Of a stretch of DNA of 64,000 bases, positions 7,789-63,803 are shown in pieces. The notes under the pieces were generated by a model that worked only from the letters and a program-made list of their open reading frames with translations, was not told where the DNA came from and ran no database searches. This stretch comes from Salicibibacter cibarius (GTDB lineage: Bacteria > Bacillota > Bacilli > Bacillales > Marinococcaceae). The first letter of the stretch is position 1; every line of letters begins with the position of its first letter. The DNA is taken from assembly GCF_016495725.1 (NCBI RefSeq), contig NZ_CP054705.1, forward strand, positions 3,162,001-3,226,000, read 5' to 3'. A program made the translations under genes and the position numbers.

Positions 7789-8150
7789 GGCGGGCTTGGT
7801 TTACTTCATGGCGACTGAATTGCCTTGATTCACTCGATTACGGTCGCCATGAGCCTTGCATGGCGACCGAAAAACCGATCTGCTCTCACTTTCAGGCTCC
7901 ATGAACACTCCATGGTGACCAAAAAGACCTGATTCATTTGATTTCGGGCTCCATGAACACCCCATGGCGACTGAAAAGCCTTGTTTCATGCATTTTCGGG
8001 CCTCATGACCTCTTCATGATAACCGAAAATCGATCTACTCTTGATTTCGGGCTTCATGAACACCCCGTGGCGACCGGAAAGCTCTGCTTCAATCGAATTC
8101 GGTCGTCATGCCTCTTCCATGCTGACCGTTTCATGCTTTTCCTTAAATTC
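7789..8150. repeat. 52-bp periodic palindromic array (about 6-7 units)
   Basis: Hairpin units begin at 7841, 7893, 7945, 7997, 8048 and 8100 (spacings 52, 52, 52, 51, 52). A degenerate unit precedes them near 7789. The best unit has arms CGGTCGCCATG / CATGGCGACCG. Units vary at many positions but the spacing is kept. The array lies between the convergent ends of trpS and the minus-strand genes. It is not coding, and repeats and spacers are too variable for CRISPR. Confidence 0.85.
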
Positions 8151-9580: not shown

Positions 9581-12112
9581 ATGAAAATTATCGCTTCCCA
9601 TAAAAACACGGATTTCGACGCACTCGCCTCTCTCGTTGCCGCCAAAAAATTGTATCCCGATGCCGACATTTTATTGCCGGCAAAAATAGGCCCGGATGTG
9701 AAAAATTATTTGGCCATCTACCGCGACCAGTTTCCTTATATCAACGAACAACAATTGCCACCCGACGGGATCGATGAACTGATTTTAGTCGATACATATC
9801 AACCGACCCGAGCGAGCAATAAATTTCAGGATATTCAGCCCGCGAGCATGACTGTCTATGACCACCATCCCGAAAGTTTCCATCTCCCCCACCCCGGAGA
9901 GACAGCGGAGGTTGGTGCAACAATTACCATTCTCCTTGAGCTTATTCAAGCGAGAGAAATCGCGCTCACCGATTGGGAACGGACGCTATTCGCGCTTGGC
10001 TTATACACGGATACCGGTTCTTTCACGCACGAACACACGTCAAACCGCGACGTGCGTGCGCTGCTTTTTTTATTCAATCATGGGTTCTCTCTTGATGTCG
10101 TCAACCGTTTTTCCGATCCCTCTTTTTCCGAGGAACAACAAGCACTGCTTTTGCAACTTCTTCAGCAAGGGGAAGTTCACGATGTTAACGGCGTTTCGAT
10201 CATGATTGGAACGATTTCCGCCGAAGCTTTCATTGACCGTTTGAACCTCATCGTTGAAAAGTGGCTTGATTTGGCAGCGGCAGATGCGTGCATTGCCATC
10301 TCGGAAATGAAAAATACGATTTTCGTTACGGCAAGGAGCAGACACCCACGTGTGAACGTATCAAAAGCCCTGGCTGCCGTTAACGGCGGTGGCCACCCCC
10401 GAGCGGCCGCCGCGACAATCAAGGACGGGGAACAAGTGAATATAGCCGCTAACATTCAGGCCAATCTTTTCTCCGCAGTCGCACCTGCTCTTGTTGCAAA
10501 ACAAATGATGAGCCAACCGGTAAAAACGGTGACGCCAGACACGTCCATCGAAGCAGTGAGAGACGAAATCCGGCGTTACGGCCACTCCGGATTTCCGGTT
10601 CAAGAAAACGGTCAATTGGTCGGCATGATTTCCCGCCGTGATGTGGACAAAGCGGTCCACCACGGCCTCGGCCATGCCCCGGTAAAAGGGCACATGAACG
10701 AACGAGTCATTACGTGTGAAGCAAACGCGACGTCCGAAGACGTTCAAAAAAAGATGATCACGCACGATATCGGGCGTTTACCGGTTCTCGCAAACAGCAA
10801 ACTGATCGGCATCATTTCACGCTCTGATCTTTTGCAATTGCTACACGATGAGCATGATGAAAAAAAACAAAAGCAAACACGCAACATGAGGAACGACATG
10901 ACCCGTGCCCTGTCTGCCGATCATTTTGATTTGCTGCAAACGATTGGCTACATTGCTGATCAAAATGGGGTCCAAGCCTACCTTATCGGCGGTATTGTTA
11001 GAGATCTGTTGCTAGAGCGTGAAAATGAAGATATAGACATCGTGATCGAAGGGGACGGCATCGCCTTTGCCAAAACGGTTGCCGATCAATTGGAAGGGGC
11101 ATTGTATACACACAATGACTTTAAAACCGCCACAATCATCCTCAGCAACGGGCAACACATTGATGTTGCCTCAGCCCGGGCGGAATATTATGATGCGCCT
11201 GCAGCCTTGCCGAACGTCCGGTTTTCAAACTTGCGGGAAGACCTCTATCGCAGGGATTTTACCTTTAATGCGTTAGCTATCCGCCTTAATGAAGCAGATT
11301 TCGGGACGCTTATCGATCCTTTCGGCGGAGAACAGGATTTACAAGATGGCGTCATACGTGTCCTTCACAACCTCAGTTTCATTGAAGATCCGACGAGAAT
11401 CTTACGCGCCATCCGCTTTGAATTAAAGTTCTCCTACACCTTTGCCGCGGATACGCAAAGATTCGCCGAATTGGCTACATCTGCCATTTCCCACTTATCC
11501 GCCGAACGTATCAAAGCCGAATTTCAGCGCTTATTCGTGGAAGTGTCAGCGGCAAAGACCTTTAAACGATTGGAAGATTTGAACCTATTGGGAGCCTTCA
11601 TTCCATTTGCCGTTTGGTCTCGGAATGCCGATCAAATGATCTCGTCCCTGGAACACGAATCCTTGCCGGAAAACCTATACACCTTTTCACGCCTTCTTCC
11701 GTTATTTGCGTTCGACGGAGCGTTACAGCACCTCACCCGTTTTGCGTTGACGAAGGCCGAAAAACAACTGCTGAATACATTCGAGCGCTTACAATCCATT
11801 GATGAGACAGCATTCAACTCTCTCGGCACCCTTCATGAAAACGTTCATGAAGCTGAAGAGACGAACCTGGTTCTTTTTGAAAAGTATACGGAGGTTTTGA
11901 ATGAAAACATGAGCTTGATGATCAAACGATACCGCGATAGACGGCGCCACATGCCTGCCTTGCTTTCAGGTGAGGATTTGCGGAAGCTTCCCATGGCACC
12001 CGGTCCGCACTACAAGCGCTATTTGCTAAAAGCGGAAAGCCTTTGGTTGGATGACAAGTTAACGAGCCGGGATGATGCTCTGCAATGGCTGAATGGGAGC
12101 CCCGACAAATAG
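9581..12112 (+). CDS. DHH phosphoesterase-CBS-CBS-tRNA nucleotidyltransferase/poly(A) polymerase fusion
   Basis: An 843-residue multidomain protein. The N-terminal DHH/DHHA1 part (about 1-305) has HKNTDFDA, LVDTYQ, YDHHPE and GGGHPRAAAA. Two CBS domains (about 310-430) carry MSQPVKTVTPDTSIEAV and GMISRRDVDKAV. The C-terminal class II nucleotidyltransferase (about 445-843) has YLIGGIVRDLLL and the catalytic DxD in NEDIDIVIEG, followed by RRDFTFNALAI and the family helical domain. Relatives act in tRNA 3'-CCA completion or A-addition; the DHH part suggests a nanoRNase-like activity and CBS a nucleotide sensor. ATG 9581 follows GAGGAGG. Which reaction it performs in vivo is not shown. Confidence 0.85.
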   Translation: MKIIASHKNTDFDALASLVAAKKLYPDADILLPAKIGPDVKNYLAIYRDQFPYINEQQLPPDGIDELILVDTYQPTRASNKFQDIQPASMTVYDHHPESFHLPHPGETAEVGATITILLELIQAREIALTDWERTLFALGLYTDTGSFTHEHTSNRDVRALLFLFNHGFSLDVVNRFSDPSFSEEQQALLLQLLQQGEVHDVNGVSIMIGTISAEAFIDRLNLIVEKWLDLAAADACIAISEMKNTIFVTARSRHPRVNVSKALAAVNGGGHPRAAAATIKDGEQVNIAANIQANLFSAVAPALVAKQMMSQPVKTVTPDTSIEAVRDEIRRYGHSGFPVQENGQLVGMISRRDVDKAVHHGLGHAPVKGHMNERVITCEANATSEDVQKKMITHDIGRLPVLANSKLIGIISRSDLLQLLHDEHDEKKQKQTRNMRNDMTRALSADHFDLLQTIGYIADQNGVQAYLIGGIVRDLLLERENEDIDIVIEGDGIAFAKTVADQLEGALYTHNDFKTATIILSNGQHIDVASARAEYYDAPAALPNVRFSNLREDLYRRDFTFNALAIRLNEADFGTLIDPFGGEQDLQDGVIRVLHNLSFIEDPTRILRAIRFELKFSYTFAADTQRFAELATSAISHLSAERIKAEFQRLFVEVSAAKTFKRLEDLNLLGAFIPFAVWSRNADQMISSLEHESLPENLYTFSRLLPLFAFDGALQHLTRFALTKAEKQLLNTFERLQSIDETAFNSLGTLHENVHEAEETNLVLFEKYTEVLNENMSLMIKRYRDRRRHMPALLSGEDLRKLPMAPGPHYKRYLLKAESLWLDDKLTSRDDALQWLNGSPDK

Positions 12113-12178
12113 GGGGATTGCCACCTCTTCATTCCTCCATTATGATAAGTGTAAGCGATACCAAAGGAGGATACTTAC

Positions 12179-13102
12179 ATGCCACTTGATCCGCAAGCGA
12201 AAACAGTTTTGGATTTTTTGTCTCAAGGTGCGTCGTTGGAAACGTTGCCGCTCGAGGAAGCGCGGGCTTCGTTTGAAAAACTGAGTGCCACCGCGCAACC
12301 CGAATTTGTTGAAAACGTCGAAGATCGAACCATCCCCGGACCGGATGGTGACATTCCGATTCGCATTTACAATCCCTTTACGGAAGGCGCGCACCCGGCA
12401 CTGATTTTCTATCACGGGGGCGGATGGGTGGTGGGAAGCATTGAAACCCATGATTCTTTATGCCGGTCATTGGCCAACCTTGCGCAATGCATCGTCATTT
12501 CCGTAGATTATCGGCTGGCGCCTGAACATAAGTTTCCGAAAGCAGTGGAAGATGCATACGCTGCAGCTGAATGGGTCGCTGAAAACGGCGCTGACATACA
12601 TGTGGACACGGGCCATATTGCTGTAGGGGGCGATAGCGCGGGCGGGAATTTAGCGACGGTAACCGCAATGATTGCCAAAGAAAAAGGGGGGCCTTCCCTT
12701 TCCTACCAGGTGCTTTTTTACCCTTCCACAGGCGCGGGTATTCCATCTGAATCGCAACGGGAAAATGGCAAGGGCTATTTTTTAACGACAGACATGATGA
12801 CCTGGTTCGCAGGAAAATATTTTGAGACATTTGATGAATTGCAAAACCCTTACGCCGTCCCGTTAAAAGCGGAAGATTTAAGCGGTTTGCCGCCTGCACT
12901 CGTGATCACGGCCGAATTCGACCCGTTGCGGGATGAAGGGAAAGCCTATGCCGATGAACTGGAAAAGGCAGGCGTGGACGTTGTGCATTCGTGCTACGAT
13001 GGGATGATTCACGGCTTCGTGAGCATGGTAGCATTCATATCCAAAGGAACCGAAGCGATCGAACAAGCTGCCGAGGCTTTACGGGGTGCGTTTCGGAGGT
13101 GA
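12179..13102 (+). CDS. Alpha/beta hydrolase (hormone-sensitive lipase-like esterase)
   Basis: The 307-residue protein has the HSL-family oxyanion motif YHGGGWVVGS near residue 80 and the nucleophile elbow GGDSAGGN near 150. The late acidic and histidine residues are EFDPLRDEG and GMIHGFVSM, which complete a Ser-Asp-His triad. It likely hydrolyses short-chain esters in the cytosol; the natural substrate is unknown. ATG 12179 follows AAAGGAGG at good spacing. It is monocistronic, followed by the tandem array. Confidence 0.9.
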   Translation: MPLDPQAKTVLDFLSQGASLETLPLEEARASFEKLSATAQPEFVENVEDRTIPGPDGDIPIRIYNPFTEGAHPALIFYHGGGWVVGSIETHDSLCRSLANLAQCIVISVDYRLAPEHKFPKAVEDAYAAAEWVAENGADIHVDTGHIAVGGDSAGGNLATVTAMIAKEKGGPSLSYQVLFYPSTGAGIPSESQRENGKGYFLTTDMMTWFAGKYFETFDELQNPYAVPLKAEDLSGLPPALVITAEFDPLRDEGKAYADELEKAGVDVVHSCYDGMIHGFVSMVAFISKGTEAIEQAAEALRGAFRR

Positions 13103-13176
13103 TCTGAGGCGAGGCGAGGGATAGGGTTCACGTTGTCGCGCCGCTAAGGGCGTACCCCTCCTCACTCCAAGAGGGA

Positions 13177-14060
13177 CGAGGATTACTTTACTTCGCTTGT
13201 TCCTTTTGGAGTAGCTTGACCTTCGGTTGAGGGATTACTTGACTTCACTTGTTCCTCTCGGAGCAGCTTGATCTTCGGTTGAGGGATTACTTGGCTTCGC
13301 TTGTTCCTTTCGGAGCAGCTCGACCTTCGGTTGAGGGATTACTTGGCTTCGCTTGTTCCTTTCGGAGCAGCTCGACCTTCGGTTGAGGGATTACTTGGCT
13401 TCGCTTGTTCCTCTCGGAGTAGCTTGACCTTCGTTTGAGGGATTACTTTGTTTCGATTGTCCCTCTCGCAGCAGCTTGATCTTCGTTTGAGGGATTACTT
13501 TACTTCGATTGTTCCTCTCGGAGCAACTTGACCTTCGTTTGAGGGATTACTTGACTTCACTTGTTCCTCTCGGAGCAACTTGACCTTCGTTTGAGGGATT
13601 ACTTGGCTTCGCTTGTTCCTCTCGGAGCAGCTCGACCTCCGTTTGAGGGATTACTTTGTTTCGATTGTCCCTCTCGCAGCAGCTTGATCTTCGGTTGAGG
13701 GATTACTTTACTTCGATTGTTCCTTTCGGAGTAGCTTGACCTTCGTTTGAGGGATTACTTGGCTTCGCTTGTTCCTCTCGGAGCAACTTGACCTTCGTTT
13801 GAGGGATTACTTGGCTTCGCTTGTTCCTCTCGGAGCAGCTCGACCTCCGTTTGAGGGATTACTTTGTTTCGATTGTCCCTCTCGCAGCAGCTTGATCTTC
13901 GGTTGAGGGATTACTTTACTTCGCTTGTTCCTTTCGGAGCAGCTTGACCTTCGTTTGAGGGATTACTTGGCTTCGCTTGTTCCTCTCGGAGCAGCTCGAC
14001 CTCCGTTTGAGGGATTACTTTACTTCGCTTGTTCCTTCAGAGAAGTTCGTTCTCCATCCG
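13177..14060. repeat. Large tandem array of about 17 units, exactly 52 bp each
   Basis: GAGGGATTAC starts at 13229, 13281, 13333, 13385, 13437, 13489, 13541, 13593, 13645, 13697, 13749, 13801, 13853, 13905, 13957 and 14009, always 52 apart. A degenerate first unit starts at about 13177. Units alternate between variants (GGCTTCGCTTGTTCC, TGTTTCGATTGTCCC and others), so the array is not one recent expansion. Each unit has weak inverted arms (GAGGGA...TCCCTC; GGAG...CTCC). Since 52 is not a multiple of three and stops occur in all frames, it is non-coding. It separates convergent genes. Confidence 0.95.
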
Positions 14061-14357
14061 AGAGGGCGTGTTGCCACCTTTCGATTGGTAGCGACAACAC
14101 TTAAGATAAACAATAGAGTGCTAATTGCCCCGACTAAAAAGAGCTGGTAAACGATGGAATATGATGATCCCTCGCTCCCTAAACAAGGATTGCGTCTTCA
14201 CCGTTTGTATACGGATTTTAACCGCCCATAGCTTTCAGGGACGGTTATTTTTGCCATACCCACATTTCCTCCCGATGGCACGGTTGTACTTTCGTTAGTT
14301 TCATCAACATCGCCGGATCCCTCGACCAGCTTCCACCCATGCTGAGAGAGACTCTAA
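14015..14357 (-). pseudogene. Possible membrane-protein gene remnant
   Basis: One minus-strand frame is open from about 14357 to a TAA at 14015 except for a TGA at 14198. Read through, it gives a soluble stretch (QHGWKLVEGSGDVDETNES), then after the TGA a hydrophobic segment (YQLFLVGAISTLLFILSVVA) and a basic tail. Its stop lies inside the last array unit. No full-length start or recognisable family is seen, so this may be a gene decayed at both ends or chance. Confidence 0.3.
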
Positions 14358-14465: not shown

Positions 14466-14918
14466 TCATTTTGCCGTATTTTCAACTACTACTTTTGTTG
14501 AGGCTAGATTAACCTGGTTTGCAATGGTATCCCCAACAGGACAATGAGCTTCTATGAATTCCTTGTATGCTTGTATTTTCTCTTCAGAGGCATTTGTTTC
14601 AATATGGAAGGTATATCGAATATCAGAAAAACCTGGCCGCACGTCCGATTTGCCAAAAAAACCATCCAGATCAATATCACCCTCTAGTTCAACCCAAAAA
14701 TTCTGAAGATCAATCTCAAATTTTTCAGCATATGTTCTGGCAACGATAGACTGGCATGCGCCTAAAGAAGAAAGCAGGAGTTCTACCGGATTCATCCCTT
14801 GATCAGTACCGCCTAAATTCTCAGGCTCATCTACAATCACTTTGTGACCTCTGGATTCTGTCTCCACCAATACATTATCTTTTAAAACCGTTTTCGCACT
14901 AACTGTCGTAATCGCCAT
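14466..14918 (-). CDS. OsmC/Ohr family protein
   Basis: A 150-residue protein of the OsmC superfamily, thiol-dependent peroxidases of organic hydroperoxides. The two redox cysteines are in GACQSI (near residue 57) and HCPVGDT (near 125). GGTDQGMNPVELLLSSLGAC is the family block. ATG 14918 follows AAGGGTGA; the open frame extends further upstream but without support. It is divergent from trpB across 224 bases. A more specific subgroup (Ohr or YhfA-like) cannot be set from this alone. Confidence 0.85.
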   Translation of the reverse strand: MAITTVSAKTVLKDNVLVETESRGHKVIVDEPENLGGTDQGMNPVELLLSSLGACQSIVARTYAEKFEIDLQNFWVELEGDIDLDGFFGKSDVRPGFSDIRYTFHIETNASEEKIQAYKEFIEAHCPVGDTIANQVNLASTKVVVENTAK

Positions 14919-20500: not shown

Positions 20501-20547
20501 AAAGCTGAAATAAGTGAATGGATATTTGCTTGCTTCAGCTTTTTTAT
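20501..20547 (+). terminator. Terminator of the MerR/TipAS gene
   Basis: AAAGCTGAA and TTCAGCTTT pair, followed by TTTT, shortly after the stop. Confidence 0.75.
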
Positions 20548-20567
20548 TTAGGGATTGCTGAACAACT

Positions 20568-20730
20568 TGCCTATATCAGCTGAAGCCGGGATGCCGCTTC
20601 CATGGCTTCGCTTTTTCGCAGACGAACGGTCAAGCCTCCTCGCGCAAAACCGGCGCTGCGGGGTCTTGACGCGTCCGTTTTTCCGCTGGCGTCTCGCCAT
20701 TTGCAGCGTCATCCTTCCGCATGTTTTCGA
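20568..20730. repeat. Bacillaceae-type GC-rich intergenic repeat
   Basis: A GC-rich stretch with inverted pieces (GACGAACGGTCAAG.. / ..CTTGACGCGTCCG) and the words GAGGAGGCTT and GACCCCGCAG on the minus strand. The same words occur in the same order at 45455-45605. Repeats of this kind are common between Bacillaceae genes; function unknown. The rest of the 20492-20858 gap shows nothing clear. Confidence 0.5.
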
Positions 20731-20858
20731 ACGTGAAAGGGTTTTCTTCTTTTAGGATAGATTTCCTTCCCACTCTCTGTTGCCTTTTATTGAACATTAC
20801 ATATTTTCACATTGCCAGTTCCACAACAATCACGCCTCGATCGTGAGTCAGTCTTGCC

Positions 20859-31717: not shown

Positions 31718-31937
31718 CTAGTGGTCTATATCAGAAGTTCTTTCCAAAATTATTATTCACATATCTCCCGATGCTTTGAAGACTGTTCGGGATCAAAAAC
31801 TGCATTTTGAGTCCTCGGTTGACAGATCTGAGGACTGAGCAGGGCTTAAAAATGCATTTTGAGTCCTCGGTTGCCATGGTTGACCATCATTTGGCTGGAT
31901 TTTTGTGCAGAAAAGCATTTTTGAAACGTTCCACTAG
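31718..31937. mobile_element. MITE-like element with CTAG ends, enclosing a 52-bp array
   Basis: The left end CTAGTGGTCTATATCAGAAG and the reverse complement of the right end CTAGTGGAACGTTTCAAAAA are related inverted repeats, like those at 1329-1597. Inside, GAAGACTG/GAGGACTG (31778, 31830) and GCATTTTGAGTCCTCGG (31802, 31854) recur at exactly 52. AGTCCTC / GAGGACT forms the palindrome. No ORF. Confidence 0.6.
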
Positions 31938-32091
31938 TACATATCATTAGATGGAACGCGGAGCGCGGGGTAACTTGCACGCTCCGTGTGGAGCAAGGAA
32001 AAAGCTGGAGATCACTTCAAAGGCTTATCTATTACTGACTTTAATGGAACAAAAGTTATACAGCAAGCGGGTCGTTGAATAGGCATAAACA

Positions 32092-32448: not shown

Positions 32449-32466
32449 GTTACTCAATCATTACAT

Positions 32467-32517
32467 AGGCGATGGAGTTCGCCATAACTGCCGTTTCGCA
32501 GCGGCTAATGACTCCTG
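32467..32517 (+). ncRNA. Fluoride riboswitch (crcB motif)
   Basis: The aptamer reads AGGCGATGGAGTTCGCCATA, then an AACTGCCG..CAGCGG stem, then CTAATGACTCCTG. This matches the crcB RNA consensus (GGCGATG-G-GTTCGCC, TAATGACTCCT). It lies 63 bases before the first Fluc gene. Fluoride binding would stop formation of the terminator that reuses ACTCCTG. Confidence 0.93.
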
Positions 32518-32560
32518 GCGGTCACTTTTGGGTGCGTTCTGTCAGGAGTTTTATTTATTT
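32511..32560 (+). terminator. Riboswitch-controlled terminator
   Basis: ACTCCTG (32511-32517, the aptamer 3' edge) pairs with CAGGAGT (32543-32549), followed by a T-rich tract. Overlap of aptamer and terminator arm gives the on-switch. Confidence 0.8.
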
Positions 32561-35732: not shown

Positions 35733-35936
35733 ACGAATCAGTCCGTTCTTTAAATCAGATGATATACAGATATTTCATTTTATTCCCCATGCCATCAAAA
35801 TGTTATAGGTGCAGGTGCAAAATTCGTCTATTTTTTCCCACATTTCATTTGCTTAACGAAACAACCATGCTGCTAAGTACAGAGAAATATCAATTTCTAT
35901 TCCCGGATAGATAGATGACAGGATCAATGGTTCTTA

Positions 35937-36025
35937 GAAACTTGGTTTTTCGTCAAGCTTTTATGGCTAAAACCTTAGTTGCACTTATGTAGGTAAGAAC
36001 GTTGATTTATACTTCCTCACCTACC
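35937..36025. repeat. IS200/IS605-like left-end relic
   Basis: ACTTGG..TCAAG hairpin, TTTATGGCTAAAACC, then CACTTATGTAGGTAAGAACG and TTGATTTATACTTCC. It aligns with 61880-61972 and partly with 22322-22465. A bare copy of the hairpin (ACTTGGCTTTTCGCCAAG) lies at 36404-36421. Confidence 0.45.
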
Positions 36026-36131
36026 AATAAAAAATACGATGGTCCCTATCAAGACATTTCAGAAAGTCAAGGGAAAGGTTCCTATTATGTTTAGTTGCGA
36101 TCAGCGTTGCTTGGCGTGAATTTTTACCGCT

Positions 36132-36310
36132 GACCGAATACCAATGACATGATTAGTGACCCTTCGAGCGTGTTTTTATCGCTGTTCGGGTGTTAATGAC
36201 TCAATTAGTGGCCCATGGAGCGCGGATTCATCTCTGTTCGGGTGCTAATGACTCGGTTAGTGACCCTTTAACTCGGTTTTCACTGCTGTTCGGGTCCTAA
36301 CTCGCAATTG
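36132..36310. repeat. 52-bp periodic palindromic array (3-4 units)
   Basis: GTTCGGGT starts at 36184, 36236 and 36288, with a divergent unit (GACCGAAT) at 36132, all exactly 52 apart. The palindrome is GGGTnnTAA..TTAGTGACCC, different from the CGGTCGCCATG type. The rest of the 35733-36860 gap holds the relic above and short open frames without ribosome sites. Confidence 0.8.
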
Positions 36311-38893: not shown

Positions 38894-39098
38894 GCTTAAT
38901 TTTAAATATAAATCTACTGCAGAGCGGCTGAAATAAGATTGAGTAATCACATAAAGGGCTTATGTTTTTTAGAAACACGTGACCTCTCGCAAATAAATGG
39001 CGAAAGTCTACGTTTATCCATAAAGTTTAAAAAGGTATAACAAAGGATGACTAACACCCGCCCGATGCTGGGTGACCGATTAATTCAACCACTCTGCA

Positions 39099-39579
39099 CT
39101 AGTACAGCCTGTCGAAAATAAGCGGTCACACCGACGATCGGAAGACCGGATTAGGGCTTCAAACTGGGGTCAGTGATCGATTGGATTAAACCGCCACAGC
39201 CACGAGTTAAGGTATCAAAGGCTATCGTCAATGACCGAATGGTTTCTTGCGAAGCAGGCTCCCCGGTCTCCATGAAACAGTTCATGGCGACCGAACACGA
39301 AAGCCAATCGCTCGTTCGGTCGCCATGAGGCAGCCATGACGACCGAAGTCTTTCTGATACAAGCCTTTTCGGTCACCATGAAGCGGCTATGACGCCCGAA
39401 CGCTTTCGATTCAGGCCATTACGGTCGTCATAAAACGGTTATGGCGACCGAACACGAGAACCGACCGCTTTTTCGGTCGCCATGACGCGGTAAATTGTCC
39501 GTTAGGGAGCCAGAAGCGTTGCTGACCGAAATTCTTCCAACTGTCTCCATGATTGGTTAATTAAGCCACCTTGCACTAG
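39099..39579. mobile_element. 480-bp MITE-like repeat with CTAG ends and 52-bp array (copy 1)
   Basis: Bounded by CTAGTACAGCCTG and ...CACCTTGCACTAG; the ends are short inverted repeats (CTAGTGCA type). A near-identical copy lies at 63325-63803. Inside, palindromes begin at 39264, 39317, 39370, 39422 and 39474 (52-53 apart), with arms like CGGTCGCCATGA. The right CTAG supplies the TAG stop of the tetR gene at 39576. Confidence 0.8.
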
Positions 39580-45352: not shown

Positions 45353-45454
45353 TATCTCTATAATTAGTAGTATTTCTTCTGAGGGCTTTAAATAGCCTTT
45401 TTTTATTGATGCAATGCCAAAATCAATGGTTGAAATATATGAATAAATGTGGTC

Positions 45455-45605
45455 ATGAAAACTAGCTAGCGGAGGAAAAACACGGAGACTCCTGTGGGAA
45501 AGCGCAGCGGGAAGACCCCGCAGAAAAAAAGCGCCCTTCTTTTTTTCGAGGAGGCTGAGCTAAAGGCCCACGGAAAGCGTAGTGTTTTTCCGCAGCGGGT
45601 GCATA
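45455..45605. repeat. Bacillaceae-type GC-rich intergenic repeat
   Basis: AGCGGAGGAAAAACACGG and CCGTGTTTTTCC-like ends form a long imperfect palindrome, with GACCCCGCAG and GAGGAGGCTGAG inside. It matches the order of words in 20568-20730. Such repeats are frequent in Bacillaceae genomes. Confidence 0.6.
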
Positions 45606-48829: not shown

Positions 48830-49000
48830 CAGTTGGAAAGCGACGACCACTGGTGCAAAAAACCCGTTGTTGTCCCTCTAGCAGAAGGAAAACGACTCTC
48901 AATGGTACAACTAAGCCGATGTTGTCCCTCTAAGGATAGGAAAGCAACCTACTATGGTACAACAAAACCGACGTTGTCCCTTAAAATACCGTTAAATAGC
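48830..49000. repeat. 52-bp periodic array (about 3 units)
   Basis: CCGNYGTTGTCCCT starts at 48864, 48916 and 48968, exactly 52 apart; a partial unit precedes them right after the peptidase stop. GGTACAAC and GTTGTCCC form the inverted arms. The word TTGTCCCTCT-n-GCAG is shared with some units of the 13.2-14.1 kb array. It separates convergent genes. Confidence 0.8.
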
Positions 49001-51992: not shown

Positions 51993-52095
51993 CCGATCAA
52001 CTCCCCAATGACACCGAAAATCGCATAAAACCATTATACCTTAAAAATAGATGAAGGGCACCATGGTGACTTTTTTAATGTTCCAAAAACAGTTT

Positions 52096-52330
52096 CGGTC
52101 GTCATGAAGCCGCCATGACGACCGAAAACTACTGCCCCCACCGATTTCAGGCGTCATGAACCTCTCATGACGACCGTAAACTCCGTCCTCCACCGATTTC
52201 GGGCGTCATGAGCCTTCCATGAAGGCCGTAAACTCCCTCCCTCAGCGATTTCAGGCGCCATGATGCCTCCATGGCGACCGAATACCCCCACTCACTCCGA
52301 TTTCGGGCATCATGACCCGTCACCACACGA
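52096..52330. repeat. 52-bp periodic palindromic array (5 units)
   Basis: Units start at 52096, 52148, 52200, 52252 and 52304, exactly 52 apart. The first has perfect 11-bp arms CGGTCGTCATG / CATGACGACCG; linkers of about 23 bases share CACCGATTTC. It lies between the argF terminator and the small membrane gene, so the arginine operon ends at the array. Confidence 0.88.
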
Positions 52331-61851: not shown

Positions 61852-61879
61852 GTGTATTTTTATAATTTTTATGTCATAA

Positions 61880-61972
61880 GAAAACTTGGCTGGTCGCCAA
61901 GCATTTATGGCGAAAGCCCTTAGCCCAACTTATGTAGGTATGTAAGTTGATTTATACTTTCTTGCCTACTAA
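61880..61972. repeat. IS200/IS605-like left-end relic
   Basis: ACTTGGCtggtcGCCAAG hairpin, TTTATGGCGAAAGCC, CAACTTATGTAGGTATGTAA and TTGATTTATACTTTC. It aligns with 35937-36025 over nearly its whole length and partly with 22322-22465. Located between argC and the prpF terminator. Confidence 0.5.
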
Positions 61973-62008
61973 AAAAATCCCAACCCACACGGAAAGTAGG
62001 CTGAGATT
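61971..62008 (-). terminator. Terminator of the PrpF gene
   Basis: Read on the minus strand, ATCTCAGCC and GGTTGGGAT pair imperfectly and are followed by seven T. Confidence 0.65.
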
Positions 62009-63253: not shown

Positions 63254-63324
63254 AAAATCGCTACAGGCACCGAAAACAGAACGTTGGGTAGCATCGTCGT
63301 TAAAAGATTTTCCGAAACACGCCA

Positions 63325-63803
63325 CTAGTGCAGCCTGTCGGAAATAAGCGATCACATCGACGACCGGAAGCTCGGATTGGAGCTTCAAACTGGGGTTAGT
63401 GGTCGATTGGATTAAACTGCCGCAGCCCGAGTTAAGGTATCAAAGGCTATCGTCAATGACCGAATGGTTTCTTGCGAAGCAGGCTCCCCGGTCTCCATGA
63501 AACAGTTCATGGCGACCGAACACGAAAGCCAATCGCTCGTTCGGTCGCCATGAGGCAACCATGCCGACCGAATTCTTTCAATACAAGCCTTTTCGGTCAC
63601 CATGAAGCGGCTATGACGCCCGAACGCTTTCGATTCAGGCCATTACGGTCGTCATAAAACGGTTATGGCGACCGAACACGAGAACCGACCGCTTTTTCGG
63701 TCGCCATGAAGCGGTAAATTGTCCGTTAGGGAGTCAGAAGCGTTGCCGCCCGAATTTCTTCCAACTGTCCCCGTGATCGGGTAATTCAGCCACCTTGCAC
63801 TAG
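63325..63803. mobile_element. 480-bp MITE-like repeat with CTAG ends and 52-bp array (copy 2)
   Basis: Nearly identical to 39099-39579 over its length, with CTAGTGCAGCCTG at the left and CACCTTGCACTAG at the right. It contains the same 52-53-bp palindromic units with CGGTCGCCATG arms. It lies between citM-like and prpF; just left of it ends a partial CTAGTGG-type terminal repeat (63300-63325). Confidence 0.8.

Follow-up and report, generated by a model that had tools for sequence, protein, structure and literature searches.

Why should some seventeen tandem units in a bacterial intergenic region differ from one another in sequence and nevertheless follow each other at exactly 52 bases? The question is raised by array A, which lies in a 64,000-nucleotide stretch of the Salicibibacter cibarius genome (contig NZ_CP054705.1, positions 3,162,001 to 3,226,000; hereafter the window). 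A first-pass annotation of this stretch, made from the sequence alone, described about 17 units without indels and offered two readings of their exact register, selection on unit length and conversion between units. Here, we describe a computational analysis of array A, of related arrays elsewhere in the genome, and of the corresponding loci in relatives. The analysis goes beyond the earlier description in one main respect: the 52-base length is genome-wide and is tied to mobile elements.

Results

Array A consists of 52-base units in strict register

Array A (Table 1) is preceded by an alpha/beta-hydrolase gene (12179-13102, +) and followed by an OsmC-like gene (14466-14918, -). The motif GAGGGATTAC is present in 16 copies in the window, all within 13229-14018, and the 15 intervals between them are each exactly 52 bases, with no indel. 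Its chance expectation is 0.13, and none of 100 shuffles reached 16 copies. A degenerate extra first copy, GATTAC at 13181, brings the array to 16 intervals and about 17 units, the number claimed in the first-pass annotation, and TRF likewise reports 0% indels (13180-14036, period 52, 16.5 copies); it additionally reports a period of 208. The interleaving of variant types that had been described is confirmed: with numbering from 0, units 7, 8 and 9 are identical to units 11, 12 and 13, and unit 2 is identical to unit 3. A multi-unit duplication had also been suspected, and the two blocks concerned, 13593-13749 and 13801-13957, have 155 of 157 positions in common. Identity at lags of one to eight units is 0.88, 0.85, 0.87, 0.91, 0.85, 0.86, 0.87 and 0.88, with its peak at four units; this four-unit (208-base) period is real but modest. 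The best lag is three or six units in other long arrays (L122, L170), so block size is not fixed, as unequal exchange predicts.

A protein-coding tandem repeat was not found at this position, in that no listed open reading frame of at least 60 aa overlaps the array; the unit length of 52 is not divisible by 3. A search for a phage or plasmid origin found no similar DNA in 50,697 phage and 72,556 plasmid records, and the one exact array pattern searched in viral contigs was absent from them. The short inverted motif that flanks the array (Table 1) may at most be a candidate terminal repeat.

Table 1. Coordinates of array A and of other 52-base repeats and elements in the window
Feature	Position	Strand	Remarks
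Family C dyad array, CGGTCGYCATGA...TCATGRCGACCG	7834..8128	.	one interval of 51
GTTGTCGC, left half of short inverted motif flanking array A	13132..13139	+	motif also in G003
Array A, lag-52 run, 16.8 units of 52 bp	13171..14046	+	intergenic
16 full 52-bp units of array A in register	13196..14027	+	four-unit higher-order repeat
GCGACAAC, right half of the inverted motif flanking array A	14091..14098	-
D element, MITE with IS630-type termini CTAGTGGTCTATATCAG.../...GAAACGTTCCACTAG, two D units, 220 bp	31718..31937	+	lag-52 run 31773-31889
Family F array, period 52, 2.6 units	36143..36276	.
C element, MITE-like repeat of ~480 bp with CTAGTG-type termini	39098..39579	+	five dyads at 52-53 bp
Family B array, period 52, 3.1 units	48834..48995	.
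Family C dyad array	52087..52289	.	same locus: 52-base intervals in G003 and G001, one 48 in G002
Second C element	63324..63803	+	94% identical to 39098-39579

The 52-base step recurs across the genome in unlike families

The genome comprises 4.51 Mb, of which the window and 40 pieces of 20 kb were sampled. Twenty of these pieces were picked for containing family A, as were the pieces of the relative G006, and density figures refer to the window and the 20 evenly spread 20-kb pieces only (464 kb). These 464 kb hold 35 lag-52 runs, compared with none at lags 47, 49, 50, 55, 56, 58 and 61 and two at 53. Over 864 kb, a sample that includes the 20 pieces picked for family A, there are 76 runs at lag 52, 55 at 104, 36 at 156 and 17 at 208. 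Within lags 15-219 of this larger sample the non-triplet lags are nearly all related to 52, those more than 3 bases off any multiple of 52 amounting to one run each at 95, 146 and 173. Triplet lags hold up to nine runs each, which look like coding repeats; lag 51 holds eight, and off-register 52 arrays may be among them. Most of the lag-52 arrays lie between genes, at positions distributed along the sampled chromosome, and in gene context (n=30) they show no clear departure from expectation. Some arrays other than A overlap short script-called open reading frames of 81-177 aa, which are taken as spurious.

A cyclic comparison of 44 arrays from the window genome and G006 yielded seven clusters at a threshold of at least 31 of 52 matches, the maximum in 400 shuffles being 27 of 52. 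Families A and B fall into one cluster, joined through intermediate arrays. When eight typed consensuses, including that of family G, were compared, four of the 28 pairs had p below 0.05 (1.4 expected; lowest 0.023), and no pair showed significant similarity after correction. Judged by these consensuses, the families appear to share 52 bases without significant sequence likeness, and deep common descent may still connect them. Core family G (GTTGAAAGGTCCAACGTCCCC..., period 52) was seen at L179 12319-12474, behind an IS630-like left terminus. Further short dispersed repeats occur in the window at 20543-20768, 45419-45598, 35934-36031 and 61876-61977, with several copies in syntenic G003, G002 or G001.

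Syntenic stretches of 60-120 kb from relatives contain four lag-52 runs in G003 and one each in G002, G001 and G006; their other non-triplet lags are relatives of 52, apart from a run at 50 in G006 and another at 110 in G001. No lag-52 run was obtained from 100-kb random samples of G001 and G002 at a stricter setting. None was found in G004, G007, G008, G009, G010, G011 or G015, sampled at 20-60 kb each, and the G009 sample has one run at lag 104. The 2.3-kb contig of G005 matched at every lag tested and is uninformative. A non-52 array is also present within the clade: G006 carries a 50-base tandem repeat, GGCTCCGCACACCCCAAAATCAGAG..., partly read as N, at L032 6913-7022 and in its syntenic stretch.

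Spacing changes are rare relative to substitutions

A family A profile, built from the window's own units, identified 221 units and 181 successive spacings, of which 171 are 52, five are 51, three are 53, one is 48 and one is 104. The 180 pairs of neighbouring units differ by 1065 substitutions and by nine spacings other than 52, a ratio of 0.0085 that is to be taken as up to 0.017 because substitutions of inner units are counted twice. In non-coding DNA outside the arrays, gap openings per substitutions were 64/531 against G003, 43/431 against G002 and 55/507 against G001. Allowing for the double counting, family A has 6-14 fold fewer spacing changes per substitution than ordinary non-coding DNA has indels. 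This deficit, together with the recurrence of 52 in unlike families, backs the proposed selection on length more strongly than the sequence of one array could. Two other A arrays, L174 14348-14991 and L117 17662-18060, are unlike that of the window in that their identity drops with lag, reflecting indels and lost register.

Family C behaves similarly outside the C element. Thirty-two of its 36 intervals are 52.0 by script-estimated centres, and direct comparison of the remaining four gave three of 52 and one of 51, bringing the count at 52 to 35 of 36. This count leaves out 27 intervals that were assigned to the C element by their linker strings (16 at 52.0, seven at 52.5 and four others), and two gaps of 104 were dropped as a missed dyad. 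By estimated centres, 8 of 37 neighbouring C intervals differ by at least 1. Outside the MITE, linker identity is 27% between arrays, which is random, and 51% between neighbours (18 pairs); since only about half of the linker positions agree between neighbours, these C arrays seem to be little homogenised. Conversion between units, the other early reading, probably also occurs, but it fails to explain family C outside its MITE.

The early annotation had named freely varying unit lengths in other strains as evidence against a constrained length. We did not see these in relatives, where unit number varies greatly and unit length little. Seven C intervals checked in G001 and G002 comprise four of 52, one of 48 (G002) and two that are ambiguous, and one D interval in G003 is 54; the 48 and the 54 are exceptions to a fixed length.

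Unit number and distribution of family A among relatives

Inspected by eye, the locus of array A holds about one A unit in G003, compared with 16.5 in the window assembly, and decayed C-type dyads in G002; nothing recognisable was seen there in G001 or G006. Family A occurs in G003 at 18 or more places. The 19 G003 loci that were fetched have one profile match at 11 and two at eight, and because single A units are so common, "always tandem" is no rule for this family. Expansion of A was probably recent in the window genome, which has up to 16 units where G003 has one or two. Of 29 genomes from its GTDB family, five were found to carry family A; they form one clade that spans two genera. An IS630 transposase query matches the same five among 16 genomes, weakly or as broken copies in G001, G002 and G006. 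Of 36 A arrays in the window genome, 28 run antiparallel to the leading strand (p 0.0012); as 74% of coding bases are co-oriented with the leading strand, gene orientation may account for this bias.

Elements with CTAG ends and IS630-type termini carry 52-base cores

Seventeen left ends of the C element occur in the genome with no more than three mismatches, as against none for a reversed-pattern control. All 17 have a right end, and 13 copies are 473-482 bp long. Among 56 dyad intervals of these elements, 41 are 52, 13 are 53, one is 55 and one is 105, and one copy has lost units in register. For the D element we found nine right ends, six with a recognised left end and three without. From TAG to AAACG the D copies measure 158, 206, 210, 262, 418 and 419 bp, and a copy in G003 measures 676; a further copy, in L272, has one unit within 169 bp from CTAG to CTAG. 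These lengths approximate 158+52n, exactly for 158, 210, 262 and 418 (n of 0, 1, 2 and 5), with near misses at 419 (+1) and 206 (-4).

An IS630-family element of 1.7 kb (L120:10011-11731), which encodes a 378-aa transposase (10529-11665, -; NF033545, 232 bits), has the same two termini as D when compared by eye. Having these shared termini, no transposase gene inside and dispersed copies of 158-419 bp, D can be classed from its sequence as an IS630-derived MITE, with what appears to be a BOX-like layout of fixed end modules around a variable whole number of core units. In the one filled/empty comparison available, CTAG is empty in the window and G003 has a joint C and D insert with CTAG at both outer ends. 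This arrangement fits a TA target duplication, and in a single comparison a duplication of the whole CTAG may equally account for it.

Homologous left termini precede different cores, namely D in L275/L276, A in L273 and G in L179, and similar left termini border A cores in L273, L180 and L120. Inward CTAGTG termini lie on both sides within 400 bp in 6 of 76 arrays, as opposed to a fraction of 0.00 among 615 control points. In family A, a left leader or IS630-like terminus is present in at most 7 of 36 arrays (up to seven substitutions allowed; 0 of 720 shuffled flanks), and two of these seven are without the TAGTG start. Array A of the window has no IS630-type terminus or leader within 220 bp on its left; on the left its flank is similar to the one in L005, and on the right to the one in L011.

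A candidate autonomous partner of the C element, a transposase located between C termini in L180, was rejected on closer identification. It belongs to an IS256-family element (11250-12700; NF033543, 381.5 bits) that has inserted within a C element and is flanked on both sides by CTTGTATCA-like sequence. Just downstream of the window's D element are a marginal group II intron match (RF00029, 41.4 bits at a cut-off of 40; 31954-32039, +) and a fluoride riboswitch (Rfam RF01734, 50.1 bits; 32459-32524, +). A link between D arrays and group II introns was dropped, there being this single Rfam match and none in six other stretches (120 kb). The IS200-type Y1 transposase (PF01797) has 23 matches in the window genome, several of them broken.

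Dyad symmetry and folding differ between families

A whole-unit dyad test gave p no greater than 0.05 in 12 of 76 arrays, with array A not among them, and we therefore rejected the idea of a palindrome common to all arrays. A spacing of 2 + 3 helical turns between half-sites was a by-eye reading and is not relied on; the dyad distance of 26 is a consequence of the period of 52 and does not count as independent evidence. Five stretches of family A showed no folding beyond that of shuffled sequences (z -1.20 to +0.55), and pairing covariation is absent from 221 units of this family. One family C stretch, window 52093-52196, folds strongly (z -7.15). Variable stem positions at 81 of 93 C sites pair no more than composition predicts (0.35 versus 0.48 expected at one site). 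Pairing exceeds expectation at the other 12 (0.92 versus 0.47, for example), an excess that pooled registers may underlie. G-T and A-C mismatches in C stems are equal in number (104:96), indicating that neither strand is favoured, and paired changes were seen by eye at single C sites in G002 and L188 (GGTAG...CTACC). Family C is probably a set of putative inverted protein half-sites in double-stranded DNA. Solitary C hairpins were not found at the first threshold (75 hairpins in 26 groups, the smallest group being 2); at a looser one, two of 28 own-genome C groups are single, one of which (L179) is a C element after unit loss.

Discussion

The observations to be explained are a length common to unlike cores, few indels in families A and C, variation by whole units, the IS630 termini of D and one insertion at CTAG. 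We tentatively propose, as a quite possible explanation, that the arrays are expandable cores of small mobile elements whose unit is held near five helical turns at the level of the DNA. Array A would then be a dispersed non-coding repeat's minisatellite core that has undergone expansion, and the best-resolved members of the wider class, D and C, would be MITEs bounded by CTAG, the termini of D being common to an IS630-family insertion sequence of the host. Such cores would gain and lose whole 52-base units by in-register recombination or slippage, as the 158+52n series of lengths, the four-unit block copies and the copy with an in-register loss suggest. Unlike cores would share 52 bases because the step is fixed in the DNA itself at five turns of 10.4 bases each, so that the gain or loss of a unit never rotates one element end, or one bound protein, against the next. 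Elements out of phase would bind or move less well and would leave fewer copies. Helical phase may thus be the cause of the constant length, and selection may work by way of mobility or of cooperative binding by proteins; the window's array A, whose own termini are only putative, may belong to the same class as the D and C elements. Sensitivity to helical phase is a property of short DNA between transposon ends in other systems. Phase by itself gives no reason for five turns rather than four or six. A transposase or host nucleoprotein that reads spacing, and so acts as a sequence-independent 52-base ruler while unlike cores are swapped into homologous IS630 shells, is conceivable, but we consider it rather doubtful. 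Under this reading any core could spread as soon as its unit measured five helical turns, and every core brought into a shell would have been driven to that length.

A different explanation requires no function for the length. One or a few ancestral 52-bp repeats could have diverged, past any recognisable likeness, into neutral minisatellites that inherited their period, with unequal recombination discarding units that fell out of register and therefore paired poorly. The block duplication and identical units of array A, the in-register unit loss in a C element copy, the A-B intermediates and the small excess of consensus pairs with low p are what such a history would leave. Homogenisation should, however, erase substitutions as well as indels, yet the indel to substitution ratio of A is several fold low, and C intervals outside the MITE stay at 52 bases almost without exception, with linkers that match at a random level between arrays and at about half of their positions between neighbours. 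We regard neutral inheritance as somewhat unlikely for these reasons. If instead a process of the host or transposase duplicated 52-base stretches, as a footprint of replication or strand exchange might, then the length would come from the generator rather than from selection. That would account for a step common to unlike sequences and for different cores behind homologous left termini, but it sits poorly with the confinement of family A to one clade, with the seven sampled relatives that lack a lag-52 run and with the G003 loci at which a single A unit has formed no array, and we consider it improbable.

Iterons and tandem centromeres such as sopC of plasmid F are tandem protein sites with a constant step near whole helical turns, and the arrays could by analogy serve a host protein, chromosome organisation or gene boundaries, their mobility being incidental. 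The mostly intergenic positions along the sampled chromosome, the 81 C sites that act as independent half-sites and the strand bias of the A arrays are in keeping with this. But presence and unit number differ at the same locus between close relatives, the protein sites are candidates only and gene contexts are close to expectation, and such a role appears quite improbable. As a known system, sopC is a single plasmid locus with a known binding protein, whereas the present arrays occupy many dispersed loci with putative sites. Family C resembles REP/BIME, which are short palindromic intergenic repeats in clusters, in its clustered palindromes, but differs from them in its direct orientation and one fixed spacing. 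The perfect-hairpin look of C, its one strong fold, the excess pairing at a minority of sites and the paired changes in G002 and L188 speak for transcribed tandem stem-loops. A hairpin or RNA-level function is nevertheless very unlikely, as the great majority of C sites show no covariation, their mismatches are balanced between the strands and A neither folds nor covaries. An assembly artefact, which the first-pass annotation had listed as a way in which its reading could fail, is the least credible alternative, to the point of being negligible. Arrays of identical units are hard to assemble, and unit number is given here as assembled; most units differ, however, the genome is a single contig, and the family is found in five genomes, including other species, with a short version at the G003 locus. 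Array A is real and not an artefact in kind.

Our proposal of expandable mobile cores has precedents among characterised repeats. BOX elements of Streptococcus pneumoniae and S. suis are described as dispersed repeats in which end modules enclose a variable number of tandem boxB modules, and in S. suis one and the same boxB is combined with end modules of two kinds (PMC3049150). In that description one core is combined with different ends, whereas here unlike cores have one exact unit length, some of them behind homologous IS630-type ends. RUP of S. pneumoniae is a small repeat of 107 bp with terminal repeats like those of the host IS630-Spn1 (PMC3049150). It resembles D in its IS630-type ends and differs in being simple, the passages on RUP in that source mentioning no expandable core (PMC3049150). 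BrickBuilt and MITEPgRS/MITE464 of Porphyromonas gingivalis have an intergenic minisatellite within a MITE, with terminal repeats that match an IS family in the host genome (PMC4596501); the two MITE types portrayed there have 23- and 41-nt repeats, no common period and IS5-like termini (PMC4596501), in contrast to the one period found here.

Minisatellites inside small mobile elements are thus already known. In the titles and abstract openings of the literature searched we found no description of unlike repeats sharing one period. Whether the length of a repeat is an accident or has a function is an old question, which a 52-base period across unlike cores makes testable. If the geometry of DNA selects the unit length, then the cores of these MITEs would be working parts and not filler.
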